Shown: positions 441 through 56,985 of the stretch, one piece after another
Layout: each line of letters begins with the position of its first letter
Numbering within the stretch: position 1 is the stretch's first letter
Source: Salana multivorans
GTDB taxonomy: Bacteria; Actinomycetota; Actinomycetes; Actinomycetales; Beutenbergiaceae
DNA length: 64,000 bases
Direction of reading: 5' to 3'
Assembly (NCBI RefSeq): GCF_003751805.1
Contig: NZ_RKHQ01000001.1
Location: 1,798,001-1,862,000, forward strand
Notes under the pieces: generated by a model
Told to the model about the DNA's origin: nothing
Seen by the model: the letters and a program-made list of their open reading frames with translations, nothing else
Databases searched by the model: none
Position numbers and translations under genes: made by a program

Positions 441-469
441 CGGTGACGGATCGATGAGGAGCCGTCGAC

Positions 470-6290: not shown

Positions 6291-7412
6291 CTAGTCCACC
6301 GGTGCGGCGACGAGGCCGGTGGCCGGCTCGTCCGCGGCAGCCGTTCCCTCGGCGGCGGCCGTGTCGGCCCGCTCGGCCGTGTCGGCGCGCTCGGCGCGCA
6401 GGGCGCCGGCGAGGAACGTGAGCCCGAGGCCCTGCCCCCAGCCCTGCGTCCACTTGCGCGAGATCGACCGATAGCCGTCGAGGTCGCGCATGACGGCGGT
6501 CCCGGCCGAGGTGTTGAGCAGCCGGCCGTCGGGGGAGACGTTCGCGAGGACGCCGTCCAGCGCGCGCTGGACGGTCGAGGTGTGGAGCGGGTTGCCCGAG
6601 GCGAGCATGGCGGCGCCGATGCCGGCGGCGGCCGACAGCTCCTCGTAGGACTCCGCGTCGTCGAGCACCGTGCGCCACAGGCCGTCCGGCGTCTGCAGGG
6701 CGCGCAGGGCCGCGAGCTGGTCGCGCAGTGCGCAGTCGACGTCCATGAACCGCGGGTACAGGTAGGGCTCGGGCAGCGTCGACCCGACCTGGCTCATCGT
6801 GTAGGCGGCCCACGCGTTGGCGCGCGCCCAGTAGAAGCCGGACATGTGGTCGCCGGCGACGTTGTCGTACCCGTGGTAGAACAGCCCGGTCGCGGGGTCC
6901 TGCAGGTACTCCACGTGCCAGTAGTACTGGTTGAGGGCGTCGTCGACGAGGTCGCGGTCACCGAGCCGGACGCCGGCGCGGAGCATGAGGAACGCGGCCA
7001 TGAAGAGCGTGTCGGCCCAGGCCTGCTCGGGGAAGTCGTTCCTCGCCGAGACCGTGTGCTGCAGGACGCGCTCGCCGAACCGGAGGGCGCGGTGGCGCAG
7101 GTAGTCGAGCTTGCTCTCGACGATCGCCCAGTACCGCTCGTCGCCCGTCACCTCGGTGAGCGTGAGCAGCGCGTGCCCCATCGCGCACGTGTTGACGGTC
7201 CAGCCCGGCAGCCCGAGCGCGACGAGCTCGTCGACGCGCCCCCGCAGCAGGTCGAGGTACTCGGAGTCCTGCGTCGCGCCGAACGCCTCGGCCACGCCGT
7301 AGTAGGCGACGCCGCACGGCCAGTCCCACGTGAGGTCCATCGACATCGTCTTGCGGACCATCGCGTCGAGGTCCCGGGTGACGAGGTCGCGATCGAGGCT
7401 GAGGCGGATCAT
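6291..7412 (-). CDS. GH105 unsaturated rhamnogalacturonyl hydrolase
   Basis: This 373-residue (alpha/alpha)6-barrel protein is a YteR/YesR-like family 105 enzyme. It removes the unsaturated galacturonyl residue that lyases leave at the non-reducing end of rhamnogalacturonan fragments, by hydrating the double bond. Asp134 in AWADTLFM is the expected catalytic acid. The motifs FYWARANAW and WGQGLGL are conserved barrel residues. Length matches the family (about 370). There is no signal peptide, so it works on imported oligosaccharides. The ATG at 7412 has GAAGGA in front. It lies downstream of two LacI genes and the CE12 esterase on the same strand, consistent with a rhamnogalacturonan-I side group. 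A second GH105 lies at 41889. Confidence 0.88.
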   Translation of the reverse strand: MIRLSLDRDLVTRDLDAMVRKTMSMDLTWDWPCGVAYYGVAEAFGATQDSEYLDLLRGRVDELVALGLPGWTVNTCAMGHALLTLTEVTGDERYWAIVESKLDYLRHRALRFGERVLQHTVSARNDFPEQAWADTLFMAAFLMLRAGVRLGDRDLVDDALNQYYWHVEYLQDPATGLFYHGYDNVAGDHMSGFYWARANAWAAYTMSQVGSTLPEPYLYPRFMDVDCALRDQLAALRALQTPDGLWRTVLDDAESYEELSAAAGIGAAMLASGNPLHTSTVQRALDGVLANVSPDGRLLNTSAGTAVMRDLDGYRSISRKWTQGWGQGLGLTFLAGALRAERADTAERADTAAAEGTAAADEPATGLVAAPVD

Positions 7413-16379: not shown

Positions 16380-18422
16380 TCAGTAGATCGCGCGCCCCGT
16401 CGCGTCCGGGATGCCGGAGGCCCGGTGGAAGTACGTGCGGAGCTGGTCGCGCCACTCCACCGCGCTGCGCCGCTGCTCGGCCAGGCGCTCGCGGACCCGC
16501 GCGTCGTACGCCTCGGGGACGGCCGTCCCGACGAGGTCGGCGAGCGACGCCCACGCGCCCTCGACGTCGTCGAGCTGCTCGACGGCGTCGGCGCGCGAGT
16601 CGTAGACGTGCTGCACGACCGTGCTCCCGGAGTGCAGCACGTGCGTGTAGGGGACGTGGTGGAAGAACAGCAGCAGCTCGTCCGGGCAGGTCTCGAGCGA
16701 CTCGTACGTCTCGCGCCACGGTGACGGGTACTGGCCGGTGTACCCGGTCCCGGTCGCGACGGTCCGGTCGACGCCGATCCCGTCGCGGTCGGCGAAGTGG
16801 TAGGTCCCCCACGGCGAGTACTCGTACCCCTCGACCGACGGCCCGTAGTGGACGCCCGGCGTCACCATGAAGCCGATCCCGAGCGGAGCCGTGTACGCCT
16901 CGTACCGCGCGAGCGAGTCGTCCATCATCGCGTGCAGCGCCGCGGCGATCCGGGTGAGCGCGGCGTCGTCGGCGCCCGCGAACGTGAGCGCGACCCACTC
17001 GTCGAGGATCTCCTCCGCCGTGAGCGAGGAGTCCCAGGCCAGCCGCCCGAACGCGTAGAGGTTCGCCTGCGCGAGGGGGTGCCCGGTCCAGAACGCGTCC
17101 GTCCCGACGTTCGACACCGCCGCGAGGCCGCCGGCCGGCTGCGGCCGGTCCGGGGAGGTCTCGCCCGCCGCGAGCTGGGCGACGGTGTGCTCTCCGTCGA
17201 GCCGGAAGCCCAGGTACTCCCGCCAGGCCGGTGCGAGATAGGCGACGTGGCGCTGCTGCCCGGTGTACTCCTGCGTGACCTGGAGCTCGACCGCGACCCG
17301 CGTGCGGGGCATCGCCGCGATGACCGGCGAGACCGGCTCCCGGACCTGGAAGTCCATCGGACCGTGCTTGACCTGGAGGACGACGTTCTCGGCGAACCGG
17401 CCGTCGAGCGGGGCGAAGTGGTCGTGGGCCGCGCGGGCCCGGTCGGTCGAGCGGTCCCGCCAGTCCTGCCGGTGGTCGTAGACGAAGGCCCGCCACACGA
17501 CGGTGCCGCCGTGCGGACGCAGCGCCTCGGCGAGCAGGTTCGCGCCGTCGGCGTGCGTGCGGCCGTAGGCGAACGGCCCCGGCTGTCCCTCGGAGTCCGC
17601 CTTGACGACGTAGCCGCCGAAGTCCGGGATGGTCGCGTAGACGCGGTCGGTCGCCTGCCGCCACCACGCCCGCACGTCCTCGTCCAGCGGGTCGTTCGTC
17701 GCCAGGTGACCGAGCAGCCGGGGCGAGCCGAACGACACCGACAGGTAGGTGACCATGCCGTAGGCGCGGAACACGTCGGCCAGGCGGGCGACGTCCGCGA
17801 GGTCGTCCGTGAGCAGGTGCGCCTCGCGCTCGTGCACGTTGACGTTGTTCACCGCGACCGCGTCGATCCCGATCGAGGCGAGCAGCCGGGCGTACTCGTG
17901 CACGCGGGCGAGGTCGTCGCGGACGCGGCCAGCCTCGAAGAAGAGCGAGCCGCCGGCGTAGCCGCGCTCGACCTGCCCCATGACGGGGTGGACCTCCATG
18001 TTGTCCCAGTGGTCCAGCATCCGCCGCGGCTGTTCCGGCGCGTCGATGCTCACCCCGTCCGGCGTGCTCCGGCCCGCGAGCCGGGCGCGCGCCGCCGTCC
18101 GCGCCGCGGCGTACAGGCCGCGCAGCGCCGCGGCGCCGTCGTGACCGACGACGACGAGCCGCCCGCCGGTCCGGACGGTGACGGCGCCCCGCGGCGGCGG
18201 CGCGGGCAGCTCGGCCAGGCCGAGGTCGTCGGCGCAGGCGTCGCCGGTGGCGACGACGACGTCCGCCTCCCGCGCCGGCGCCGGCCGGGCGCCGGCGAGC
18301 TCGCGGCGCGCGGTGTCGAGGCAGGGCCCGTCCCCGACGACGGCGGCCGTGCCGGACGTCAGGGGCGCCAGCGCCTCGGGCGGCAGCCAGGCGGGGTGGA
18401 CACGGGACGGGGTGGAACTCAC
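16380..18422 (-). CDS. aguA: GH67 alpha-glucuronidase
   Basis: This 680-residue protein cleaves (4-O-methyl-)glucuronic acid from the non-reducing end of aldouronic acids derived from xylan. The central barrel carries KADSEGQPGPFAYGRTH (acid Glu in the SEGQPGP motif) and the paired carboxylates of the family in GPMDFQVREPVSP and VELQVTQEY. The N-terminal domain is the usual hexosaminidase-like fold and the C-terminus is helical. There is no signal peptide, as is typical of GH67, so it acts on imported aldouronates. The GTG at 18422 follows GAGGAG. It is downstream of the serine hydrolase at 18489 and is the clearest evidence that this locus deals with glucuronoxylan. Confidence 0.93.
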   Translation of the reverse strand: MSSTPSRVHPAWLPPEALAPLTSGTAAVVGDGPCLDTARRELAGARPAPAREADVVVATGDACADDLGLAELPAPPPRGAVTVRTGGRLVVVGHDGAAALRGLYAAARTAARARLAGRSTPDGVSIDAPEQPRRMLDHWDNMEVHPVMGQVERGYAGGSLFFEAGRVRDDLARVHEYARLLASIGIDAVAVNNVNVHEREAHLLTDDLADVARLADVFRAYGMVTYLSVSFGSPRLLGHLATNDPLDEDVRAWWRQATDRVYATIPDFGGYVVKADSEGQPGPFAYGRTHADGANLLAEALRPHGGTVVWRAFVYDHRQDWRDRSTDRARAAHDHFAPLDGRFAENVVLQVKHGPMDFQVREPVSPVIAAMPRTRVAVELQVTQEYTGQQRHVAYLAPAWREYLGFRLDGEHTVAQLAAGETSPDRPQPAGGLAAVSNVGTDAFWTGHPLAQANLYAFGRLAWDSSLTAEEILDEWVALTFAGADDAALTRIAAALHAMMDDSLARYEAYTAPLGIGFMVTPGVHYGPSVEGYEYSPWGTYHFADRDGIGVDRTVATGTGYTGQYPSPWRETYESLETCPDELLLFFHHVPYTHVLHSGSTVVQHVYDSRADAVEQLDDVEGAWASLADLVGTAVPEAYDARVRERLAEQRRSAVEWRDQLRTYFHRASGIPDATGRAIY

Positions 18423-35472: not shown

Positions 35473-35921
35473 GGTGTCACGGTAGCCAAGGTCCCCTCGG
35501 CCGGTGACCGCCGCGGCGCCCCGCGCTCCTCCGTCGCGCCGGCGCCCGGAGCGGCCTCCGGACTCCCGCCCCGTGCCGCACCAGGGCCGCACCAGCGCCG
35601 CGCCACGGCCGCCGCGGGGCCGCCGCACGCCCCGCGATCCGGCGACGTCGCGTCCGCGAGCGGAGGCCGGACAGCGCAAACGTGCACCCGACCGGCTTCG
35701 AGGTGGTTGTCCGTGCACTTGTGGGCCACGGGCCCTACTCGCATCTTGGTTTTACGAGTCACCTGTTGTCCCGTCTCGGTTTTCGGCCGCCAGCGAGGGT
35801 CTTGCGGGCCCCTGGTCCGCTGGGTTGTATTGGCGCCGACGGCGGGGCTCCCAGGAGTCGGCCGGACATCCGTCCGGTCCTTCGGCGAAACCCGGCCCCG
35901 CCCCACATCAAGGAGGATGCG
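35473..35921. other. 449-bp divergent intergenic region before the pectin operon
   Basis: The first 190 bases are very GC-rich and featureless apart from the leaderless -10 (TACCGT, minus strand 35479-35484). From about 35700 base composition becomes less GC-rich, with GGTTTTACGAG and GGTTTTCGG. ACTCG (35736 region) and CGAGT are arms of a 23-bp inverted repeat. A weak promoter TTGCGG-17-TTGTAT (35802-35830) precedes the receptor gene, leaving a leader of about 85 bases. I cannot name the operator with confidence. Confidence 0.5.
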
Positions 35922-37259
35922 ATGAGAATCAGGTCGACAGCTGGTGTCGTGGCAGTCGTCGCCGCGTCCGGCGCCATGCTGCTCGCGGCGTGCGCCCCGG
36001 GCCAGGTCGAGGGCGGGTCGTCCGACACGGGAGGGTCCGACCCGACCGAGGTCGAGTCGGTCGACCCGAGCGAGTTCGCGGGCAAGACGCTCAACTACGT
36101 CTACTTCACCGACGGCCCCGACGAGGCGGCCACCCGCGAGCTCATCACGGCGTTCGAGGAGACCTACGACGTCACGGTCAACCTCGAGATCCTGCCGTAC
36201 GCCGACCTCGTCACCTCGGTGACGCAGCGGCTCACCGGCGGGAACGCCCCCGACGTCGCCCGGCTCTCGACGCTCCAGGACTTCCGCGCCGACCTGCTCC
36301 CGCTGGGCCAGTACCTGGGCGCCGACTACAGGGACGAGTTCCTCGAGGGCCCGCTCCAGGCGGTCGTCGAGGACGACGGCGACATCATCGCCGTCCCGTC
36401 CGACCAGACCCTCAACGGCCTGTTCGTCAACGTCGACCTCTTCGACCAGGCGGGCGTCGAGCTGCCCGACCCCGAGGACCCGTGGACCTGGGAGGAGATG
36501 CTCGACGCCGCGTCGAAGGTCAAGGCCGCGACCGGCACCGCCTACGCGTTCGCGATGGACAAGTCGGGGCACCGGCTCTCCACGGTCCTGTCCCAGTACG
36601 GCACGGCCCTGCTGAGCGCGGACGGGGTGGCCCTCGACGAGGCGAAGGCCGTCGCCGCGATGCAGCCGCTCGTCGACATGATGGCCGTCGACGACATGCC
36701 CCGGGACTTCTGGCTCGGCAGCGGCAGCCGGTACGAGGGCGCCAACGAGATCTTCCTCGCTGGCGAGACGCCGATCTACCTCTCGGGCACGTGGAACGTC
36801 GGGCTCATCGACGAGAACGCCGAGTTCGAGTGGGCCGTCGCGCCGAACGCCTGCGAGGCCGAGTGCGGCGGGTTCCCCGGCGGCAAGTACATGGCGGCGT
36901 TCCGCGAGAGCAAGAACCCGGCCCTGGCGGCCGAGTTCATCCGGTTCATGAACGAGACCGGGAACCAGGAGATCTTCCTCCAGGCGGCGGGCTCGCTGCC
37001 CACCCGGGTCGACCTGCAGGAGTCGGGCGTCACCTACCCCGAGTCCCGCCAGGCGGCGATGGACGTGTTCAACCTCGACCTCGGCCGGACGCCGACCTTC
37101 GGCTACGAGTCGAACGCGAGCCCGGCCTTCTCCGGCTCCGCCACCGAGCTCGTCAACCAGATCTCCGAGGTCGTCGCGGGCAACAAGGACCTCCCGACCG
37201 CGATGGCCGACCTCAGGACCTCGACCCAGTCGATCCTCGACGAGGTCACCTCGTGGTGA
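35922..37259 (+). CDS. CUT1 substrate-binding lipoprotein for pectin oligosaccharides
   Basis: This 445-residue receptor of the UgpB/MalE-like family 1 has a lipoprotein signal ending LLAAC at about residue 23. It contains LNYVYFTDGPDEAATRELI and the hinge region with NAPDVARLSTLQDF. The ATG at 35922 has AAGGAGG five bases upstream. It opens an unbroken seven-gene operon ending at 44712, in which downstream genes process unsaturated galacturonides, so the ligand is likely a lyase-derived rhamnogalacturonan or polygalacturonate oligomer. The stop overlaps the permease start (GTGA). Confidence 0.9.
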   Translation: MRIRSTAGVVAVVAASGAMLLAACAPGQVEGGSSDTGGSDPTEVESVDPSEFAGKTLNYVYFTDGPDEAATRELITAFEETYDVTVNLEILPYADLVTSVTQRLTGGNAPDVARLSTLQDFRADLLPLGQYLGADYRDEFLEGPLQAVVEDDGDIIAVPSDQTLNGLFVNVDLFDQAGVELPDPEDPWTWEEMLDAASKVKAATGTAYAFAMDKSGHRLSTVLSQYGTALLSADGVALDEAKAVAAMQPLVDMMAVDDMPRDFWLGSGSRYEGANEIFLAGETPIYLSGTWNVGLIDENAEFEWAVAPNACEAECGGFPGGKYMAAFRESKNPALAAEFIRFMNETGNQEIFLQAAGSLPTRVDLQESGVTYPESRQAAMDVFNLDLGRTPTFGYESNASPAFSGSATELVNQISEVVAGNKDLPTAMADLRTSTQSILDEVTSW

Positions 37260-38185
37260 CAGCCGCACCCGGCGTCGCGCCTGCCCTCACCCCCGGCCGG
37301 GGTGGGGGCGGGCCCCGCCGACGCAGCAGGCCGTGGGGCATCCGGGTGGCCCCGTACCTGTTCCTGCTGCCGAACATGGCGATCTTCGGCCTGTTCACGA
37401 TCTGGCCCGCGATCAACGGGTTCAACATCTCGCTGTACGAGTCGCCCAACGGACGGGTGTTCCGCTGGGTGGGGCTCGGCAACTACCAGAAGATCCTCAC
37501 CGACGAGGAGTTCTGGCAGGTGGCCCGGCAGACGGCCGTGTACGCGCTCGCGTTCGTCGTCCTCACCGCCGCCTTCTCGATCCTCCTCGCCGTCCTGGTC
37601 GACCAGCAGCGACGGGGCAAGACCTTCTTCCGCGGGGTGTTCTTCGTCCCGGTCCTCGTCTCCCCGGTCGTCGTCGGCCTCGTGTGGAACTGGCTCCTGG
37701 AGCGCCAGGGCGGCCTCGTCAACACGGCGCTCGGCACGAGCATCCCGTGGCTGGTCGACTCCTCCTGGGCGATGGTCTCGATCATCGTCGTCGGGGTCTG
37801 GATGCAGGTGGGCTTCTTCATGCTCATCGCGCTCGCCGGCCTCCAGGGCATCGACCCGTCGATCTACGAGGCCGCGCGGATGGACGGCGCGTCCCGGTGG
37901 AAGCAGTTCTGGTCGATGACGCTGCCGCTGCTGCAGCCGAGCATCGTCGTCATCGTCGTGCTGTCGACGATCCGCGGCTTCGAGGCGTTCGACTTCATCT
38001 ACACCCTCACCGGGGGTGGCCCGACGGGAGCGACGACGCTCATCGTCCAGTACATCTACGAGAACGGGTTCGTCTCACCGATCCGGTACGGCCACGCCGC
38101 CGCGGCCGGCGTGATCCTCTTCGTAGCCATCTTCACGCTGACGCTCGTCAACTGGGCGATCAGCCGACGTAGGGAGGCCGTGTGA
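37256..38185 (+). CDS. CUT1 ABC transporter permease (MalF/UgpA-like)
   Basis: This 309-residue permease has six transmembrane segments beginning at APYLFLLPNMAIFGLF and the EAA loop YEAARMDGASRWKQFWSMTLP. The GTG start overlaps the receptor stop; another in-frame GTG lies three bases upstream. It works with the permease at 38182 and, in the absence of any local ATPase gene, presumably with an ATPase encoded elsewhere. The N-terminal 30 residues are cytoplasmic and Pro/Gly/Arg-rich. Confidence 0.91.
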   Translation: MTAAPGVAPALTPGRGGGGPRRRSRPWGIRVAPYLFLLPNMAIFGLFTIWPAINGFNISLYESPNGRVFRWVGLGNYQKILTDEEFWQVARQTAVYALAFVVLTAAFSILLAVLVDQQRRGKTFFRGVFFVPVLVSPVVVGLVWNWLLERQGGLVNTALGTSIPWLVDSSWAMVSIIVVGVWMQVGFFMLIALAGLQGIDPSIYEAARMDGASRWKQFWSMTLPLLQPSIVVIVVLSTIRGFEAFDFIYTLTGGGPTGATTLIVQYIYENGFVSPIRYGHAAAAGVILFVAIFTLTLVNWAISRRREAV

Positions 38186-39057
38186 GCACCGCAACGTCCG
38201 CGCCGCAGGGGCCCAAGACCTGGACCTCGCTCGACCGCCGGGGGGTCAGGCTCTCCGACGCCCTGCGCGTCGTCCTGCTCACGGCGGGCGCCGTCGTGGC
38301 GCTCGTCCCCGTCGTGTGGACCGTGCTCGGGTCGTTCAAGACGCCGACCGAGCTGGCCCGGCGGCCGATCTCGATCCTGCCCGACTCCTGGTCGTTCCAG
38401 AACTACACGAACGCCCTGGGGCAGTTCGACTTCGTCCGCTATATCTCCAACAGCATCATCGTGACGATCGGGGCGACGATCCTCACCCTCGTCGTCAACT
38501 CGATGGCGGCCTACGCCCTGTCGAAGTACAACTTCCGCGGCAAGACGGCGCTGTTCCTGCTGACCCTGGCGACGATCATGATCCCGCTCCAGGTCATCCT
38601 CATCCCGGTGTACCAGGTGGTCGCGCGGCTCGGGCTCGTCAACAGCCTGTGGGGCCTCATCATCCCCGCGGCCGCGACGCCGACCGGCGTGTTCCTGCTG
38701 CGCCAGTACATGCTGGGCATCCCGGACGAGCTCATCGAGGCGGCGCGGGTCGACGGCTCGGGGGAGTTCCGCACGTTCCTGCGGATCGTGCTGCCGCTGT
38801 GCACGCCGGCGCTCGCCGTCGTCGCGATCTTCTCGGTGATGTGGCGCTGGAACGACTTCCTCTGGCCGCTGCTCGTCGCCCAGAACGAGAAGGTCTACAC
38901 CCTTCCCGTTGCCCTCGCGCGGTTCAACGCCCAGCAGACCGTCCCGTTCAACCTCATCCTCGCGATGAGCGTCGTCTCGATCGTCCCCGTCCTCATCATC
39001 TTCCTGTTCTTCCAGCGCCAGATCGCGACAGGTATCGCGAACACCGGCGGCAAGTGA
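38182..39057 (+). CDS. CUT1 ABC transporter permease (MalG/UgpE-like)
   Basis: This 291-residue permease has six transmembrane segments and the EAA loop LIEAARVDGSGEFRTFLRIVLPL. It is preceded by the typical periplasmic loop SFQNYTNALGQFDFVRYISN. The GTG start overlaps the previous stop by four bases. It completes the membrane part of the pectin-oligosaccharide importer. The next gene starts 22 bases downstream. Confidence 0.92.
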   Translation: MSTATSAPQGPKTWTSLDRRGVRLSDALRVVLLTAGAVVALVPVVWTVLGSFKTPTELARRPISILPDSWSFQNYTNALGQFDFVRYISNSIIVTIGATILTLVVNSMAAYALSKYNFRGKTALFLLTLATIMIPLQVILIPVYQVVARLGLVNSLWGLIIPAAATPTGVFLLRQYMLGIPDELIEAARVDGSGEFRTFLRIVLPLCTPALAVVAIFSVMWRWNDFLWPLLVAQNEKVYTLPVALARFNAQQTVPFNLILAMSVVSIVPVLIIFLFFQRQIATGIANTGGK

Positions 39058-39079: not shown

Positions 39080-41899
39080 ATGTCCGACGTGACACACGAC
39101 AGCGGCCGGACGGTGGACGTCACCGACGCCGCCGGCACGATCAGGGACTGGGTCTCCTCCCCGGTCTGGGCGACCCCGTGCGAGGACCTCGACCGGTTCC
39201 TGGCCCTCGACGGTGAGCCGTGGGGCGAGGGTCGCTGGGTCCTGACGAACGGGCCGGACGTCGGTCCGTTCAAGGAGCGTCTCGCCGCGGCCCACCCGAT
39301 CGACGAACCGGCCGAGCTCCCCGAGATCGTCGAGGGCGGTCCGGTCGGCTGGGCGGTCGAGGGACGGGCGGTGTCCGGCACCTGGCGCCGGCGTCGGACG
39401 GGCTGGGACGGGTACGTCGACTGGTCGGCGTTCTGCTTCACGCCGGAGTACCGGTGCGCCGTCGCCGCGACCGTCGTCGAGGTCGACCAGGCCGAGTGGC
39501 GCACGCTCGAGATCGCCACCACGGGCCCGTTCGTCCTCTGGCTCAACGGCGAGGTCGTGCTGCGCGGGAGGACCGTCTCCTACATGGAGCCCGAGGTGCA
39601 CCGGGTCCGGGTGCGCCTGCCCTCCCGGACGTCGACGATCCACGTCGCGACGTGGCAGGTCGCGTTCCGCGAGTGCCGGCACATCGTGCGGCTGCGCGTG
39701 CTCGGTCTGCCGGTGCGCGTGGTCCTGCCGTCGCCGGGGGCCGACGAGACGGCGGCCCGGCTGGCCGGCGCGGTCCTGGAGACCATCGCGTCGCGCTCCT
39801 GGGCGGTCGAGGGCACCGAGGGGACGCTCGAGGCGCCGCCGGGCGTCGCGCTGCGCATCCGGGTGAGCGAGGGTCCGTGGCAGCACGTCGTCGCGGACGA
39901 CGAGGGCCGCGTGCGGTACGGCCTCGGCGAGGCCGAGGAGATGGTCGACGAGGGCGGGGACACCGAGCGGTCGGCCGGCGCCTCGATGCTCACCTCGGGC
40001 GAGAGCGTCGTCGAGGTCGGCGTGGACGACCCGCGCTGTCCCCGGACCGTCGCGCTGCGCGTCGCCGTCCTCCCGCCCGGGAGCCGGGAGACGGCCGTCG
40101 GTGGCCCGGAGCAGTGGCGGCGCGAGGTGCTGGCCCAGGTCACGGGCGAGCTGGCGGAGGAGGGCATCCCGCGGGAGACCGGCGTGGCCTCCGTGCTCGC
40201 GCGGCACGCGCTCGACCCGGCGACCCGGGTCACGGCGGACGACGTCGCCTCGGCGCTCCACCGTGTCGTCACCCGCGGGGACTGCGCGGACTTCGAGGCG
40301 GTCGCGCTCGTGACGGCGTGGCGGCTCGTGCCGGCCGCGCAGTGGGACCCGGGCGTGCGCGAGTCCGTCGAGGAGGCGCTCACCGGCCTGAAGTACTGGA
40401 TCACCCAGCCGGGCCTCGACGCCATGTGCTACTTCACCGAGAACCACCAGCTCGTGTGGCACACCGCCGAGCACCTCGTCGGGAGCGCGTTCCCGGACGT
40501 CGCGTTCGCGGTGGACGGGCGCTCCGGCCGCGAGCACGCGGCCGAGGGGCTGGTGCGGGCCGCCCGGTGGATCGAGCGGAAGCTGTCGGGCGGCTTCTCC
40601 GAGTTCGACTCGAACGCCTACCTCGCGATCGACAGCTACGCGCTGGTCAGCCTCGTCGAGCTCGGCGAGGACGAGGACCTGCGCGCCGCGGCCACGACGC
40701 TGCTCGACAAGATCCTCCTCACGCTGACGGCCAACTCGTGGCGGGGGATCCACGGGGCCGCGCACGGGCGGTCCTACGTCCACACGCTGCGCAGCTCCCG
40801 GTACGAGGAGACGTCGCCGATCCTGCGACTCATCGCGGGCGTCGGGACGCTCAACGACGCGGTGCTGCCGGTGACGGCGCTGGCGCTCGCCCGCCGCTAC
40901 GAGATCCCCGACGTCGTGCGGCGCATCGTCAGCGACCCGCCGCCCGTCTGGTACGGCCGGCAGGTCTACCGGGGCGCGCTCGCGTTCGAGCGCGACCTGC
41001 TGGCGCGGCCCTACCGCTCGGACGTGCGCGTCTGGCGGACGCCCGACGTCATGCTCTCCAGCGTCCAGGACTACCGGGCTGGCCTTCCCGGGCTCCAGGA
41101 GCACCTCTGGGGGGCGACGCTGGGCCGCGAGGCCCAGGTGTTCGTGACGCACCCGGCCAACGCCGACACCGGGTCGTCGGCCCGGCCGAACGGCTGGGTC
41201 GGGCACCGGGTCCTCCCGCGCGTCCACCAGGAGCGCAACGCGCTGATCCACCTGCAGCGGTTCGTCGACTCCGACCCCGCGCGGTACACCCACCTGTGGC
41301 TCCCGCTCGCGCAGTTCGACGAGCACCGCGTCGACGGCGACTGGCTGCTGGCGCGTCGCGGCGACGGCTACGTCGCGGTGGCGACGGACGGCGGGCTGGC
41401 GCCCGTCACGCGCGGCGACGTCGCCTTCCAGGAGTGGCGCTCGGCCTCGGGCGGAGCCGCCTGGGTCGCGACGGTCGGCAGCCGGGCCGAGGACGGGTCG
41501 TTCGACGCGTGGGTCGAGCGCGTCCTCGCCGGCAGGCTGACGTGGGGCGCGGCCGGTGTCGACGGTCCGGCCGTCGTCTGGGAGCGTTCGGGCGAGCCCG
41601 ACCTCGCGCTCACGTTCGACGGGCCGTTCCTCGTCGGCGGGCGCCCCGCCGGCTTCGTCGATGGACGCCCGGAGCGCGACCCGCACCTGGACAACCCGGC
41701 CGTCCGGCTGGAGTTCGGCCAGGACGAGGCGATCGCCGCGTGGGGCGGTGCGACGCTGCGGCTGCCCGTCGGGGCCGCGATCGCCGCGGCGGACCGGGCG
41801 GCCGAGCGCGGCGCCGCGCTCGCCGGCGCCGCGGTCGCCGGGGCCGCGCTCGCCGGCGCCGGTGTCGCGCCGGCCGGGGGAGGCCCCGATGGCCGGTGA
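39080..41899 (+). CDS. Large protein of unrecognised family, candidate (alpha/alpha)6 glycan-active enzyme
   Basis: I do not recognise a named family for this 939-residue protein. Its N-terminal 210 residues look like a beta-sandwich of the kind found ahead of catalytic domains (IATTGPFVLWLNGEVVLRG). Residues about 340-700 are predicted helical and carry three striking motifs: Glu454-Asn-His-Gln in CYFTENHQLVWHTAEHL, GFSEFDSN (about 505-512) and GAAHGRSY (about 559-566). These look like active-site segments of a toroidal (alpha/alpha)6 fold. The C-terminal third is beta-rich and ends in an Ala/Gly tail. There is no signal peptide. It lies between a pectin-oligosaccharide importer and GH105-kduI-kduD, overlapping GH105 by 11 bases, so a role in cutting rhamnogalacturonan fragments is likely. 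The ATG at 39080 is preferred to a GTG at 39068 that sits on its own GGAGAG. Confidence 0.8.
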   Translation: MSDVTHDSGRTVDVTDAAGTIRDWVSSPVWATPCEDLDRFLALDGEPWGEGRWVLTNGPDVGPFKERLAAAHPIDEPAELPEIVEGGPVGWAVEGRAVSGTWRRRRTGWDGYVDWSAFCFTPEYRCAVAATVVEVDQAEWRTLEIATTGPFVLWLNGEVVLRGRTVSYMEPEVHRVRVRLPSRTSTIHVATWQVAFRECRHIVRLRVLGLPVRVVLPSPGADETAARLAGAVLETIASRSWAVEGTEGTLEAPPGVALRIRVSEGPWQHVVADDEGRVRYGLGEAEEMVDEGGDTERSAGASMLTSGESVVEVGVDDPRCPRTVALRVAVLPPGSRETAVGGPEQWRREVLAQVTGELAEEGIPRETGVASVLARHALDPATRVTADDVASALHRVVTRGDCADFEAVALVTAWRLVPAAQWDPGVRESVEEALTGLKYWITQPGLDAMCYFTENHQLVWHTAEHLVGSAFPDVAFAVDGRSGREHAAEGLVRAARWIERKLSGGFSEFDSNAYLAIDSYALVSLVELGEDEDLRAAATTLLDKILLTLTANSWRGIHGAAHGRSYVHTLRSSRYEETSPILRLIAGVGTLNDAVLPVTALALARRYEIPDVVRRIVSDPPPVWYGRQVYRGALAFERDLLARPYRSDVRVWRTPDVMLSSVQDYRAGLPGLQEHLWGATLGREAQVFVTHPANADTGSSARPNGWVGHRVLPRVHQERNALIHLQRFVDSDPARYTHLWLPLAQFDEHRVDGDWLLARRGDGYVAVATDGGLAPVTRGDVAFQEWRSASGGAAWVATVGSRAEDGSFDAWVERVLAGRLTWGAAGVDGPAVVWERSGEPDLALTFDGPFLVGGRPAGFVDGRPERDPHLDNPAVRLEFGQDEAIAAWGGATLRLPVGAAIAAADRAAERGAALAGAAVAGAALAGAGVAPAGGGPDGR

Positions 41900-43037
41900 G
41901 GACCTGACCTCGTCCGAGCTCGCGGCCCCGCCGCTGCTCCCGCTCGCGGTCGAGGAGCTCGAGGCCGGCCTCGACGACCTCGAGGCGGCGCTCACCGCCG
42001 GCGCCGTCGGGCTCGGTCTCGACCGGTGGTTCTGGGGCGAGGGCGTCTCCCTCCTGGCGCTCGCGCGCCTGGCGCGGCAGCGGGACGGCGGGGACCACCC
42101 CGTCGTCGTCGCCCACATCGACCCGCACACCCGCCGCCACCCCGTGCTCGAGCACGTCAACAACCTCGCGCCGGGCGCGGCGCTGGCCGAGCTGCTGCGG
42201 ACCCGGGAGCACCCGGCGCGGATGGAGCTCCTGGTCGCCGGGCTCGACTGGTACGCCTCGGCGCCCGAGGCGACGCGCGCCCCGAACGGCGCGCTGGAGC
42301 ACTGGCCGGGCGGCGTGTGGGCCGACACCGTCTACATGGCGGGGGAGTTCCTCCTGCGCGCCGGCGAGGTCCTGCGCCGGGAGGACCTGGTGGCGCAGGC
42401 GCGCGACCAGTGGCTCGCCCACGCCGAGGTGCTCCAGGACGACGCCTCCGGGCTGTTCGCGCACGGCACGCACCAGGGCGAGCGCATCCCCTGCCACTGG
42501 GGTCGCGCGAACGCGTGGATCGCGCTGGCCGGCGCCGATCTCGTGGCCGCGGGGGCCGATACGACGGGGGAGATCGCCGAGCGGCTCGCGCGGCAGCTCA
42601 CGGCGCTCGCCTCGCACCAGCCCGAGCACGGCGTCTGGGACGTCCTCGTCGACGGCCAGCCCGAGACGCGGGGCGTCCTGGAGACGTCGGCGGCCGCCGG
42701 GATCGGCGCAGCCGCGCTGCGGTTCGCCGCGCTCGACCCGGCTGGCCGCACGGCGATCCGCGCGATGGGCGAGCTGGCGGTGCGCGGGGCCCTGGCCTAC
42801 GTCGAGGGCGAGCACCTCACCCGGGTGAGCGCCGGCACCGTGCTGCAGCTCATCCCGTTCGGCTACTCCGTCATCCGCGACGACCGGCCCCAGCCGTGGG
42901 GTCAGGGGCTCGGTCTCGAGGCGATCGCGGCCTGGCGGGAGACCGCCGACGACCCGGGCGCGGTCACCCGACCGTCGCGCGGCACCCCCGGAGACACGGC
43001 ACGACACGAGACGACCCGAGAGCAGGAGCTGACATGA
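41889..43037 (+). CDS. GH105-like unsaturated glucuronyl/galacturonyl hydrolase
   Basis: This 382-residue (alpha/alpha)6 protein belongs to the GH88/GH105 group. Asp146 in GGVWADTVYMAGEF is the catalytic acid. HWGRANAWIALA and PWGQGLGLEAIAAW are the conserved barrel segments also seen in the enzyme at 6291. It would release 5-keto-4-deoxyuronate from unsaturated oligogalacturonides or rhamnogalacturonan fragments, which is the substrate of the KduI encoded next. The ATG at 41889 overlaps the preceding gene by 11 bases, and its stop overlaps kduI by four. The C-terminal 25 residues are Thr/Arg-rich and probably disordered. Confidence 0.87.
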   Translation: MAGEDLTSSELAAPPLLPLAVEELEAGLDDLEAALTAGAVGLGLDRWFWGEGVSLLALARLARQRDGGDHPVVVAHIDPHTRRHPVLEHVNNLAPGAALAELLRTREHPARMELLVAGLDWYASAPEATRAPNGALEHWPGGVWADTVYMAGEFLLRAGEVLRREDLVAQARDQWLAHAEVLQDDASGLFAHGTHQGERIPCHWGRANAWIALAGADLVAAGADTTGEIAERLARQLTALASHQPEHGVWDVLVDGQPETRGVLETSAAAGIGAAALRFAALDPAGRTAIRAMGELAVRGALAYVEGEHLTRVSAGTVLQLIPFGYSVIRDDRPQPWGQGLGLEAIAAWRETADDPGAVTRPSRGTPGDTARHETTREQELT

Positions 43038-43864
43038 GGACGATCGACGCGGCCTCCCCCGCGCACGTCGCGACGCTGGACACCGACGGGCTGCGCGAGG
43101 CGTTCCTCGCCGAGGACCTCTTCGTCCCCGGGCGGGTCTCCGCCGCCTACCTGCTGAGCGACCGGATCGCGGTCGTCGGCGCCGTCCCCCTCGACGAGGG
43201 CCTCCGGCTGCCGACGTACGACCAGCTCCGCTCGGAGACTTTCCTCCAGCGCCGCGAGGCGGGCGTCCTCAACCTCGGCGGCGCCGGGGCGGTCACCGTC
43301 GACGGCGAGCGGTACGAGCTGGCCACCACCGGGAGCCTCTACGTCGGACGGGGGGCGCGGGAGGTCGTGTTCACCTCCGACGACGCCGACGACCCCGCGG
43401 CGTTCTACCTGTTCTCCGCCACGGCGCACCTGGACCTCCCGACGACGCTCGTCACGCCCGAGGCCATGAACGTGGTCGAGATCGGGAGCGAGGACGACGC
43501 CAACCGCCGCACGCTGCACCAGTGCATCTACGAGGGCGGCACGCGCAGCGCGCAGATCGCGTTCGGCTTCACGACCGTGCACCGCGGCAGCGTCTGGAAC
43601 ACGATGCCGGCGCACACCCACGCCCGGCGCACGGAGTGCTACCTGTACTTCGACCTCGCGCCGCAGGACCGGGTCTTCCACGTCATGGGCGAGCCGTCGC
43701 AGACGCGCCACCTCGTCGTGGCCGACCGGACCTTCGTGTTCTCCCCGCCCTGGTCGCTCCACACGGGTGTCGGCACGGGGCCCTACTCCTTCGTCTGGGC
43801 GACGGCGGGGGAGAACACCACCTACGACGACATGGACGCCGTTCCCGTCACGCGGATGCGCTGA
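43034..43864 (+). CDS. kduI: 5-keto-4-deoxyuronate isomerase (copy 1)
   Basis: This 276-residue cupin isomerises 5-keto-4-deoxyuronate (DKI) to 2,5-diketo-3-deoxygluconate (DKII). The zinc site is visible: two His and a Glu in MPAHTHARRTECYLYF, and a further His in PPWSLHTGVG, matching E. coli KduI. Length equals the family norm (278). The ATG overlaps the GH105 stop. It is followed by kduD, so the operon converts the unsaturated residue released by GH105 directly to KDG. A second kduI is at 55718 with only moderate similarity by eye. Confidence 0.93.
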   Translation: MRTIDAASPAHVATLDTDGLREAFLAEDLFVPGRVSAAYLLSDRIAVVGAVPLDEGLRLPTYDQLRSETFLQRREAGVLNLGGAGAVTVDGERYELATTGSLYVGRGAREVVFTSDDADDPAAFYLFSATAHLDLPTTLVTPEAMNVVEIGSEDDANRRTLHQCIYEGGTRSAQIAFGFTTVHRGSVWNTMPAHTHARRTECYLYFDLAPQDRVFHVMGEPSQTRHLVVADRTFVFSPPWSLHTGVGTGPYSFVWATAGENTTYDDMDAVPVTRMR

Positions 43865-43933: not shown

Positions 43934-43947
43934 ACGTGGAGGACGAC

Positions 43948-44712
43948 ATGATTCTTGACCGGTTCCGGCTGGACGGCCGGGTGGCGCTGGTGACGGGCGC
44001 GGCGCGCGGGCTCGGCCAGGGCGCCGCGCTGGCGCTCGCGGAGGCGGGCGCGGACGTGGCGCTGCTGGACTACGTCGCCTCGACCGAGACCGGGGAGATG
44101 ATCGAGGGGCTGGGCCGACGCGCTCACGTCATCGAGTGCGACCTCGTCAACGCCGAGGTGGCGACCCTCGACGCGGCCGTCGCCGAGGTCGTGGCGGAGC
44201 TCGGGCGGATCGACGTCCTGGTGAACAACGCCGGGATCATCCGTCGCGCCCCGATCCTCGACCACCCGGTGCAGGACTGGGACGACGTGCTCGCGATCAA
44301 CCTCGACGCCGTGTTCCACCTCTCCCGCGCCGCCGCCCGCGTCTTCGTCGAGCAGGGCGGCGGGAAGATCATCAACATCGCCTCGATGCTGTCCTTCCAG
44401 GGCGGCATCCTCGTGCCGGGGTACACGGCGTCCAAGCACGCCGTCGCCGGTGTGACGAAGGCCCTGGCGAACGAGCTGGCGAGGTTCGGCGTCAACGCGA
44501 ACGCGATCGCCCCCGGCTACATGGCGACCGACAACACGGCGCAGATCCGCGCCGACGCCGAGCGCGAGGCCTCGATCCTCGCCCGCATCCCCGCGGACCG
44601 CTGGGGCACACCGGCCGACCTGCAGGGGGCGTTCGTGTTCCTCGCGTCCTCGGCGTCGGACTACATCAACGGCGCCATCATCCCCGTCGACGGCGGGTGG
44701 CTCGTGCGGTAG
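43948..44712 (+). CDS. kduD: 2-dehydro-3-deoxy-D-gluconate 5-dehydrogenase (copy 1)
   Basis: This 254-residue short-chain dehydrogenase reduces 2,5-diketo-3-deoxygluconate to 2-keto-3-deoxygluconate (KDG). It has the cofactor motif TGAARGLG (16-23), NNAGIIRRAP, the catalytic Ser in NIASMLSF and YTASK. The phrase YMATDNTAQIRAD is characteristic of KduD. Length matches E. coli KduD (253). The ATG at 43948 has GTGGAGG five bases upstream. It ends the pectin operon; a terminator hairpin follows nine bases after the stop. A paralogue lies at 54885. Confidence 0.93.
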   Translation: MILDRFRLDGRVALVTGAARGLGQGAALALAEAGADVALLDYVASTETGEMIEGLGRRAHVIECDLVNAEVATLDAAVAEVVAELGRIDVLVNNAGIIRRAPILDHPVQDWDDVLAINLDAVFHLSRAAARVFVEQGGGKIINIASMLSFQGGILVPGYTASKHAVAGVTKALANELARFGVNANAIAPGYMATDNTAQIRADAEREASILARIPADRWGTPADLQGAFVFLASSASDYINGAIIPVDGGWLVR

Positions 44713-55717: not shown

Positions 55718-56539
55718 TCAGCGCAGGTCGCCCGGCGTGATGCCGGTGACGTCGGTGTAGTCGATGTTCTCGCCGGCCATCGCCCAGACGAACGTGTAGG
55801 CGCCGGTGCCCGAGGCGGTGTGGATCGACCAGGGCGGGGAGACGACGGCGTCGCGGTCGTGCAGGAGCAGGTGGCGGGTGTTGCCGGGCTCGCCCATGAG
55901 GTGGACCAGGACCTCGTCGCCGAGGCCGTCGTAGAGGTAGACCTCCGTGCGACGCGGGTGCACGTGCGGGGGCATGGTGTTCCACACGCTGCCCGGAGCC
56001 AGGGTCGTGATCCCGAGGACGAGCTGGTTCGACGCGATCCCGTCGGCGTGGATGTACTTGCGGATGGTCCGCTCGTTGGAGGTCACCAGCTCGCCGAGGT
56101 GCAGCGCCTCGACCTCGTCCCGGCCCGCCTTGGCCGCCGTGAGCCGCGCGTGTGCCGGTGCCGAGACCAGGTAGACCGCGCCCGCGCCGGACAGCGTGAC
56201 GTCGCGGGTGCCGAGCGGGAGGTAGACGACGTCGTGGGCGCCGAGGGCGAACGTCTCGTCGTCGGCCGTGACCGTCACCTCCCCGGCGAGACCGACCAGG
56301 CCGAGCTCCCGGCGCTCGAGCAGGTACTCCGCCTTGATGATCTCCGGCGCCTCGAGCGTGACGGGCGAGCCGTCCTCGACCAGGACGCCACCGACGAGCA
56401 GCCGGTCGTCGTGCGCGTACCCCCACGTCACCTCGCCCGGGGTGAACAGCCCCGACAGCACGAACCGCTCCCGCAGCTCCTGCGTGCCCAGCCGGGCGAC
56501 GTCGTCGGGGTGGGTGCTCCACAGGCGGGTGACAGACAT
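55718..56539 (-). CDS. kduI: 5-keto-4-deoxyuronate isomerase (copy 2)
   Basis: This 273-residue cupin matches KduI: metal ligands in MPPHVHPRRTEVYLYDGL and the His of PPWSIHTASG, with the N-terminal half beginning RLWSTHPDDVARLGTQEL. It isomerises DKI to DKII. The ATG at 56539 follows AGAGAGGA. It is the first gene of the kduI-kduD unit and diverges from the IclR regulator. Its predicted promoter carries the palindrome TTGAATCCATTCAA. Compared with the copy at 43034, the metal site is the same but much of the rest differs. Confidence 0.92.
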   Translation of the reverse strand: MSVTRLWSTHPDDVARLGTQELRERFVLSGLFTPGEVTWGYAHDDRLLVGGVLVEDGSPVTLEAPEIIKAEYLLERRELGLVGLAGEVTVTADDETFALGAHDVVYLPLGTRDVTLSGAGAVYLVSAPAHARLTAAKAGRDEVEALHLGELVTSNERTIRKYIHADGIASNQLVLGITTLAPGSVWNTMPPHVHPRRTEVYLYDGLGDEVLVHLMGEPGNTRHLLLHDRDAVVSPPWSIHTASGTGAYTFVWAMAGENIDYTDVTGITPGDLR

Positions 56540-56985
56540 GGTCGGGTCCTCTCTCGGTACTGGGTCGGCCGGGCTCACGATGCCGATCGACGTCAACTCT
56601 CCCAGGCTTCCGCGTCTCCGGCGGCGTCGGCTGGCCCGGTGTCGTCGCGGGCAACGGTCGGAGGGCGGGGCCCGGGGAAGTCTTCTCTGGTATTGAATCC
56701 ATTCAACGCGCGGAAGTCAACCCTGCCGCGAACCGGTGGTGGCGGGTGCGCCGGGGGGCCGAGGTGGCGCCGGGCTCCGGGCTCGGGGTCGCCGCGGCAC
56801 CGGTCGGGCGTCGGGCTCGGGGTCGTCGCTCCGACACCTCCGCTGCGCCGACCCGCCGCCGCGCCGCGCGGTGGGCGCCGTCATCGGGCGCCGCGCGGGT
56901 CCCGCGGCGTGCCGGTGGGGCCTCGCGGGGGTCGCGTCCGGTCCGTGCGCGCTCGGCCGGCGGTCCCTGCTGGCACAGTTGGGGT
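56540..56985. other. 446-bp divergent region between kduI copy 2 and the IclR gene
   Basis: The kduI promoter and palindrome lie at 56693-56720, leaving a kduI leader of about 150 bases. The part from 56721 to 56985 is very GC-rich; I see no gene in it and no convincing IclR promoter. Confidence 0.5.
56693..56706. promoter_or_regulatory. Palindrome TTGAATCCATTCAA in the kduI promoter
   Basis: Perfect 6-base arms flank CC. On the minus strand TTGACT (56715-56720) is a good -35, so the palindrome occupies the space between -35 and -10. It could be a variant of the TGAAWCGATTCA operator (centre CC instead of CG) or the site of the adjacent IclR protein. Confidence 0.6.

Follow-up and report, generated by a model that had tools for sequence, protein, structure and literature searches.

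Closest described enzymes and the Salana locus

Enzymes of GH105 and GH88 act on unsaturated uronides, and PL26/YetA-like (PcRGLX) proteins have an expected role near rhamnogalacturonan-I (RG-I) fragments. Lyases of families PL8, PL12, PL15, PL17, PL21, PL35 and PL39 place an alpha/alpha toroid before an antiparallel beta-sandwich. A table in an excerpt of PMC2885750 groups yetA with the yes and lpl genes as plant-related. By subtraction from Table 4 in the excerpted part of PMC12088678, lyases have gaps of 53–63 from the Asn, His or Asp to the Tyr, and of 130–166 from the Tyr to a beta-domain His in the nine enzymes listing one (the PL8 and PL23 enzymes list none). The Asn and His adjoin in PL17 (N201/H202; PMC4765187, excerpt) and PL39 (N186/H187; PMC12088678, same excerpt). 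PL42 and PL27 are L-rhamnose-alpha-1,4-D-glucuronate lyases, as described in excerpts of PMC8377490 and PMC10951650.

We analysed a window of 64,000 nucleotides from Salana multivorans (the whole stretch of DNA studied), in which one forward-strand gene encodes a protein of 939 residues (Table 1). The length and frame given in an earlier note hold from the ATG at 39080 to the TGA at 41897–41899. Its proposal of translation with GH105 by overlap is likewise correct: the GH105 ATG at 41889 precedes the stop codon, giving an 11-base overlap (coordinates counted on the sequence), and the GH105 and KduI genes share an ATGA overlap at 43034. A binding protein, two permeases, Glyco_hydro_88, KduI and KduD confirm the claimed place between a CUT1 importer and KduI/KduD. 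The pectin-oligosaccharide setting was also borne out, because the window contains genes for rhamnose isomerase, rhamnulose-phosphate aldolase, lactaldehyde reductase and the galacturonate pathway, making this a rhamnose-plus-galacturonate locus. Two GH42 genes and one GH67 gene also lie within the window, and two matches to PL11 rhamnogalacturonan lyases lie outside the locus in the Salana genome. Inspection by eye revealed no signal peptide in the 939-residue protein, whereas the PL35 enzyme GAGase II carries one (PMC12088678, in the excerpted part).

Table 1. Features of the locus and of the 939-residue protein, in window coordinates
Feature	Position	Strand	Basis or remark
CUT1-type solute-binding protein (SBP_bac_1)	35919..37259	+	scanned range, start approximate
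ABC permease (BPD_transp_1)	37262..38185	+	scanned range, start approximate
ABC permease (BPD_transp_1)	38182..39057	+	Pfam scan
939-residue protein, proposed cytosolic uronate lyase	39080..41899	+	
N-terminal beta domains, residues 1-335	39080..40084	+	AlphaFold2 model
Alpha/alpha toroid, residues 343-618	40106..40933	+	AlphaFold2 model, fold search
D401-D404, both Asp invariant, start of toroid helix at 403	40280..40291	+	
E454-N455-H456-Q457, N455 the proposed carboxylate neutraliser, His adjoining	40439..40450	+	
G505-Y514 (GFSEFDSNAY), invariant E508, S511 and Y514, the last being the candidate catalytic Tyr	40592..40621	+	
G559-Y566 (GAAHGRSY), invariant R564 and Y566	40754..40777	+	
Antiparallel beta-sandwich, residues 624-895	40949..41764	+	AlphaFold2 model, fold search
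Q673-E674-H675, H675 the candidate active-site His from the beta domain	41096..41104	+	
GH88/GH105-like gene	41889..43037	+	Pfam Glyco_hydro_88, 91 bits
KduI, 5-dehydro-4-deoxy-D-glucuronate isomerase	43034..43864	+	
KduD, 2-dehydro-3-deoxy-D-gluconate 5-dehydrogenase	43936..44712	+	alternative ATG start 43948

No match to a known family in Pfam, NCBIfam or the PDB sequences

The 939-residue protein belongs to a sequence family that is absent from Pfam, NCBIfam and the PDB sequences. Its sole Pfam match up to E = 10 was CTD2 (E = 0.048; 13.3 bits, where the cut-off is 25), NCBIfam gave no match and the PDB sequences offered nothing better than E 0.036; we dismissed as chance both the CTD2 match and the ATP synthase epsilon matches among the PDB sequences (E 0.036 and above). 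The earlier view that no family could be named was thus upheld in these three libraries, and the strong match to a characterised family that would speak against it was sought there and not found. A profile built from 56 family sequences retrieved nothing from the PDB chains at E values up to 10. When the 56 members were scanned one by one, Pfam returned five families with one member each (best E 0.0092), and no match to Alginate_lyase (PF05426), PL8 (PF08124), Hepar_II_III or PcRGLX_1st. Nor is the family named in the excerpts searched from the open-licence PMC literature.

Profile searches of the Salana genome with PF16889, PF08124 and PF05426 gave no match. Operon position had suggested homology to B. 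subtilis YetA/PL26, which found no support: PcRGLX_1st (PL26/YetA, PF19501) matches neither the 56 members nor the Salana genome; the B. subtilis control gives one match. PL26 was not among the Foldseek and VIA matches listed, which says nothing against a PL26 fold. Sequence homology to heparinase II/III also lacked support: hhalign against 18 PF16889 proteins gave a probability of 0.7%, non-significant in global and local modes.

Homologues range from Actinobacteria to haloarchaea. Conservation was computed on 74 aligned rows, which include all 70 loci and of which two stop short of the motif region. A further alignment of 56 sequences comprises 52 of the 70 loci, hand-picked to be complete and diverse, together with P0001, L075, L078 and L079. 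The three conserved polar motifs of the earlier note are ENHQ (residues 454–457) with HTAE (461–464), GFSEFDSN (505–512) and GAAHGRSY (559–566), and their conservation is real and far above chance: E454, N455, H456, E508, S511, Y514, R564 and Y566 are identical in 72/72 homologous rows covering them. HTAE is less constant (H461 in 53/56 sequences). Position 675 is His in 68/72 covering rows and Tyr in 3, the remaining exception being a frameshift-split gene.

Gene order was also computed. A GH105-like reading frame overlaps the gene or starts at most 400 bases downstream in 45/54 testable actinobacterial loci; the other 9 have no adjacent GH105. Among Chloroflexi, GH105 adjoins the gene in 0/13 testable loci, and no GH105, KduI or KduD was found anywhere in 15 loci. 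In both groups distant versions may be missed, because the markers were the window's own proteins. The Chloroflexi neighbours sampled were 10 of 144 listed reading frames, from four loci (L055, L056, L059 and L065); about 10 of that list came from actinobacterial L067. Two roseobacter cassettes combine a homologue of the 939-residue gene with GH88, a TRAP transporter, KduD, LacI and KduI, and no lyase annotation appears in the 29 kb viewed around them. Shinella and rhizobial cassettes resemble these, with GH28 present in the rhizobial ones, and a haloarchaeal short form adjoins Gfo/Idh genes.

Predicted fold and candidate active site

The full-length AlphaFold2 model (pLDDT 90) runs from beta domains through an alpha/alpha toroid to a beta-sandwich, consistent with the helical central region and (alpha/alpha) toroid that the earlier note had anticipated. 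Residues 16–210 align with jelly-roll/GH2-type and PA14-type domains, and this N-terminal jelly roll (GH2, PA14) swamped the full-length Foldseek and VIA results; a viral library gave ten matches at E ≤ 0.001, with no named lyase among them. With the toroid and sandwich alone (residues 335–900; pLDDT 89.9, pTM 0.92), all six Foldseek matches at E ≤ 0.001, and ranks 1–11, were glycosaminoglycan lyases. VIA listed, as its best 50 matches, 47 uronate lyases of several families (many of them repeat entries of one enzyme), one DSE1 epimerase and, last, two GH127 rows. Its best match, PL35 GAGase VII, reached Z 11.3 (rmsd 6.3 over 382 residues), where models without a clear match typically reach 7–8 and a Z below about 13 may reflect mere shared arrangement in mostly helical models. 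Alignments covered 373–449 residues for 46/47 lyase rows and 219 for the other (PL5). The resemblance to lyases is remote, because the six Foldseek matches have query-normalised TM-scores of 0.26–0.37 and rmsd of 10–18 Å, and the VIA rows listed have rmsd of 4–8 Å; the toroid-then-sandwich order of the PL8/12/15/17/21/35/39 lyases is nevertheless present in the model.

Within the toroid, 13/16 invariant positions lie at most four residues from the starts of five alternate helices, and none lies near other helix starts. The three motifs, placed at the N termini of alternate helices in the model, should therefore face one end. The single pocket that the earlier note proposed to look for would fit these predicted helix positions.

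The computed residue spacing also resembles that of the lyases. The N455–Y514 gap is 59 in 54/56 sequences and the Y514–H675 gap is 161 in 50/56. Invariant N455, H456 and Y514 match the usual spacing of lyase toroids, an equivalence of spacing and helix order only; the chance probability of the Asn–Tyr spacing alone is about 0.11, so it is weak by itself. In the control toroid family GH105 (46 sequences), no invariant Asn- or His-to-Tyr pair 53–63 apart was found. H675 fits the spacing of the lyase beta-domain His, yet is Tyr in those three rows. Asn455/His456 and Tyr514 rank as the best catalytic candidates; His675 may join them and Arg564 may assist. Of the Glu, His and Arg named earlier, His stays in this set and Arg in the lesser role. 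Likewise, of the earlier 'hydrolase or lyase', fold class and residue spacing favour the lyase.

Compared with the PL35 lyases GAGase II and GAGase VII (PDB 8khv, 8khw), the protein shares the toroid followed by an antiparallel beta-sheet domain, and Asn, Tyr and the candidate beta-domain His are spaced much alike, but there is no detectable sequence relation (7–9% identity in structural alignments) and PL35 lacks the extra N-terminal beta domains. The PL17 and PL39 oligoalginate lyases (Alg17c, 4ojz/4nei; Dp0100, 6jp4) have the same domain order and, in the excerpts describing them, a similar adjoining Asn–His pair with Tyr 53–57 residues past the Asn; by contrast, the 56 members have no Alginate_lyase or Hepar_II_III match, and the neighbours give no hint of alginate. 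Feature order is shared with the heparinase II/III superfamily (PL12, PL15, PL21; PF16889/PF07940). In the 939-residue protein, N-H starts one helix and E..S..Y the next but one; heparinase loci have the form E.S..Y in 9/24 read, so that the E–S distance is one residue longer in our protein.

A probable cytosolic uronate lyase and its alternatives

An undescribed intracellular lyase is probable because of the lyase-like predicted shape, the conserved residues and the pectin gene set, and we consider it likely that the 939-residue protein is a cytosolic uronate lyase, whatever its substrate. The GH105-like neighbour in most actinobacterial loci and the roseobacter, Shinella and rhizobial cassettes also speak for this reading. 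We infer a lyase chemistry and residue roles as follows. The CUT1 importer would take up uronate-containing oligosaccharides, most likely RG-I fragments, and the protein would break X-(1,4)-uronate in a beta-elimination. The carboxylate would be neutralised by Asn455, with probable help from His456 and Arg564; His456, His675 or Tyr514 would abstract the C5 proton; and Tyr514 would protonate the leaving O4. The co-translated GH105/GH88-like hydrolase would then remove the unsaturated uronyl end, and the released unsaturated uronate would enter central metabolism through KduI and KduD.

Several observations count against a lyase: the non-significant heparinase comparison, the remoteness of the fold resemblance, the weakness of the Asn–Tyr spacing by itself, Tyr at position 675 in some rows, the Chloroflexi and nine actinobacterial loci without an adjacent GH105, and the haloarchaeal short form next to Gfo/Idh genes. 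The invariant residues D401, D404, E454 and E508 would also suit a hydrolase. An (alpha/alpha) toroid glycoside hydrolase trimming imported pectin oligosaccharides, with its acid/base pair among these four carboxylates at the toroid face, is unlikely: GH127 stands at VIA ranks 49–50 of the matches listed, but aligns over 209–248 residues where nearly all lyase rows align over far more, no hydrolase is among the Foldseek matches at E ≤ 0.001, and all covering rows keep the Asn-His and Tyr of lyase type. With its two PL11 matches, the genome could provide unsaturated fragments without the 939-residue protein and has no strict need of a second lyase. DSE1 (6hzn), at VIA rank 3 (Z 9.6, 461 residues aligned), brings in a uronyl C5-epimerase-like enzyme, comparable to dermatan sulfate epimerase, which would remove the C5 proton but leave the chain intact. 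This we regard as highly improbable: we know of no epimerised uronate between pectin and KduI/KduD, and the usual partner of the protein is an unsaturated-uronyl hydrolase, which depends on a lyase product.

For a uronate lyase, we infer that the substrate is probably RG-I fragments. Gene context cannot separate galacturonate from glucuronate substrates, because both give KduI/KduD the same product; glycosaminoglycans and pectin are described as yielding one KduI/KduD substrate in an excerpt of PMC12838403. A lyase acting on arabinogalactan rhamnosyl-glucuronate caps (compare PL27/PL42) or another glucuronate glycan would agree with this shared product, with the GH42 and GH67 genes in the window and with relatives in marine roseobacters and a haloarchaeon. 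We think it rather unlikely, given that genes for rhamnose and galacturonate are the dominant set in the window and that rhizobial cassettes contain GH28. If RG-I is the substrate, GH105 and an exo-acting lyase that frees terminal rhamnose would take turns in trimming the chain down to rhamnose and 5-keto-4-deoxyuronate. In PL42 and PL27, too, beta-elimination at a uronate sets terminal rhamnose free, a likeness by description only, from the excerpts cited above. We put forward tentatively, as less likely than not, that the protein founds a new polysaccharide lyase family, spanning haloarchaea to Clostridia, of cytosolic exo-lyases that remove terminal RG-I rhamnose in alternation with GH105, for which neither an alpha-rhamnosidase nor an alpha-galacturonidase would be needed.

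If the uronate lyase reading is true, a function could be given to a 'hypothetical protein' that is widespread next to GH105/GH88 in marine, soil and plant-associated microbes, and with it a basis for a new lyase family. This would account for cassettes such as the two in roseobacters, where an unsaturated-uronyl hydrolase accompanies KduI/KduD without an annotated lyase, and would open an intracellular route for rhamnogalacturonan fragments to testing.

Sequence, family and distribution

The earlier note had described a 939-residue open reading frame bearing three polar motifs and translationally overlapping a GH105 gene. Reading the frame and placing the motifs confirmed this, and counting from the sequence gave 11 bases common to the 939-aa gene and the GH105/GH88-like gene, the end of which is in turn overlapped by the kduI start (ATGA). 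Its view that the protein belongs to no nameable family also held, with nothing above the cut-off in Pfam and nothing in NCBIfam; the heparinase II/III, Alginate_lyase, Lyase_8 and PcRGLX profiles do not include it. PDB sequences gave no match better than E 0.036, a profile of 56 family sequences found zero PDB chains up to E 10, and the 56 members scanned singly against Pfam hit five families, each in one member only (best E 0.0092).

A single genome scan across Bacteria and Archaea recovered 70 relatives, by title 55 actinobacterial and 15 Chloroflexi loci. Matches on 199 plasmid records came mainly from Rhizobium (123) and Pseudosulfitobacter (40), with others from Sinorhizobium, Haladaptatus and Subdoligranulum. 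The gene is sporadic near home, because only 5 of the 59 genomes at or around the window's own (itself counted) have a match. Short homologues (L074, L075 and L078:12007-13992; open frames of about 660–720 aa) are missing a large share of the N-terminal beta region, which suggests that toroid and beta-sandwich together form the family core. In Nocardia aurantia (L067:8705-12984), the homologue is divided between two overlapping frames, through a frameshift or sequencing error. The locus from a metagenome bin titled Bifidobacterium breve (L033) has a marker layout nearly identical to that of an actinomycete (L032), so that species title may be wrong.

Features of the window and of the 939-aa protein
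Feature	Position	Strand	Remark
939-aa gene	window 39080-41899	+	
GH105/GH88-like gene	window 41889-43037		
Second GH88/GH105	window 6291-7412	-	scores higher than the 41889-43037 gene
GH67 alpha-glucuronidase	window 16380-18422	-	
Second KduI	window 55718-56596	-	
Beta domains	residues 1-335		AlphaFold2 model
Toroid	residues 343-618		AlphaFold2 model; about 12 helices
Beta-sandwich	residues 624-895		AlphaFold2 model
ENHQ; HTAE	residues 454-457; 461-464		
GFSEFDSN	residues 505-512		
GAAHGRSY	residues 559-566		

Predicted fold and candidate active site

AlphaFold2 modelled the full-length protein with pLDDT 90 and pTM 0.91, and residues 335–900 alone with pLDDT 89.9 and pTM 0.92. The N-terminal jelly roll dominated matches to the full model, for which the VIA rows spanning residues ~340 to 818–928 were a glycosaminoglycan lyase, PL17 alginate lyases, a chondroitinase and a dermatan sulfate epimerase. 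With residues 335–900, all six Foldseek matches at E ≤ 0.001 were lyases (8khw, 9o3q, 1rwa, 5jmf, 1rw9 and 4mmh; query TM 0.26–0.37, rmsd 10–18 Å), and the best 50 VIA rows comprised 47 lyases (many being repeat entries of one enzyme), one DSE1 and two GH127 (VIA rmsd 4–8 Å). The likeness of the modelled region to lyases is remote, and function does not follow from fold sharing alone.

Conservation was assessed in 74 rows, comprising all 70 loci (one split in two) and three further relatives. D401, D404, E454, N455, H456, E508, S511, Y514, R564 and Y566 are identical in all 72 covering rows; position 738 is His in 70 of these and position 675 in 68, the exceptions at 675 being three Tyr and the split gene. 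Of the toroid's 16 invariant positions, 13 are no more than four residues away from the helix starts at 403, 454, 512, 567 and 611, which belong to every second toroid helix, and none is near the other starts (hypergeometric P 4e-9, assuming independent positions, which motif positions are not, and counting 567–571 and 579–586 as one helix). In a toroid, such an arrangement should bring these residues to one end, and the topology is thus consistent with the convergence of the three motifs that the earlier note had proposed as a check.

Table 4 of PMC12088678 lists catalytic residues of toroid lyase families; subtraction of its entries gives Asn/His/Asp-to-Tyr gaps of 53–63 residues and, in the nine enzymes listing a beta-domain His, Tyr-to-His gaps of 130–166. 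In PL8 and PL23 enzymes, the second His sits just ahead of the Tyr instead (PMC12088678). The corresponding gaps here are 59 for N455–Y514 (54 of 56 family sequences) and 161 for Y514–H675 (50 of 56). Because N455–Y514-type spacing has a chance probability of 0.11, given three invariant Tyr in the toroid, we treat it as supporting evidence only; the helix-start clustering is stronger. As the Tyr of the PL15 enzyme VBAly15A is proposed to be both acid and base (PMC11921355), an inconstant H675 need not exclude a lyase. By prediction, the 939-aa protein would work in the manner of a toroid uronate lyase.

Gene neighbourhood and proposed function

The usual actinobacterial order is binding protein, two permeases, 939-aa-type gene and GH105-like gene, frequently accompanied by kduI and kduD. 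Of 54 testable actinobacterial loci, 45 have a GH105-like frame that overlaps the 939-aa-type gene or starts ≤400 bases downstream of it; of 49, 39 have permeases no more than 5 kb upstream, and KduI and KduD occur somewhere in 34 and 28 of 55; importer genes still adjoin in seven of the nine loci without adjacent GH105. Homologues also occur in cassettes of two roseobacters (GH88, TRAP transporter, KduD, LacI, KduI, homologue) and Shinella (GH88, KduI, homologue, CUT1 importer, KduD), before GH88, GH28 and an importer in two Rhizobium records, and with Glyco_hydro_88 as the following gene in Subdoligranulum. Counting against this association, searches with the window's own proteins, which distant versions may escape, found adjoining GH105 in 0 of 13 testable Chloroflexi loci and GH105, KduI or KduD anywhere in 0 of 15; among ten neighbouring frames sampled from four of these loci were L-fucose-isomerase-like proteins and one GH4. 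The haloarchaeal short form is surrounded by Gfo/Idh genes; heparinase II/III and acetylxylan esterase are encoded ≤12 kb away.

The window overall is a rhamnose and galacturonate locus. The frames scanned encode L-rhamnose isomerase, rhamnulose-1-phosphate aldolase/dehydrogenase, lactaldehyde reductase, two KduI, KduD, UxaC and altronate dehydratase, together with a rhamnulokinase-like kinase and a fructuronate-reductase-like protein (both below cut-off). Their glycosidases are two GH88/GH105, two GH42, a GH3 and a GH67, the last amid mostly rhamnose and galacturonate genes. The sole NCBIfam match of the 41889-43037 and 6291-7412 genes is 'beta-galactosidase BglB', at 117 and 217 bits, so far below the cut-off of 420 that best-hit annotation would mislead. 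Genome-wide, we found two PL11 matches, five GH88/105 (one below cut-off), one GH78 on the other contig, and zero for Pectate_lyase_4 or GH106.

GH105 and GH88 enzymes act on unsaturated uronides. Given this activity of the partner, the fold class of uronate lyases and the matching residues, the simplest joint reading is that the 939-aa protein is a predicted cytosolic lyase generating the substrate of its GH105/GH88-like partner. It could possibly be a hydrolase instead, because four carboxylates are invariant, sequence homology to lyases is not significant and PL11 enzymes could feed GH105 without it. If it is a lyase, RG-I is the likeliest source of substrate here, although KduI and KduD would serve glucuronate-derived products too; a lyase for another substrate is somewhat less probable. 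Lyase action in the cytosol would yield an unsaturated uronide for the partner to process. Since the window contains a second KduI and a second GH88/GH105, there may be two uronide substrates that this locus handles.
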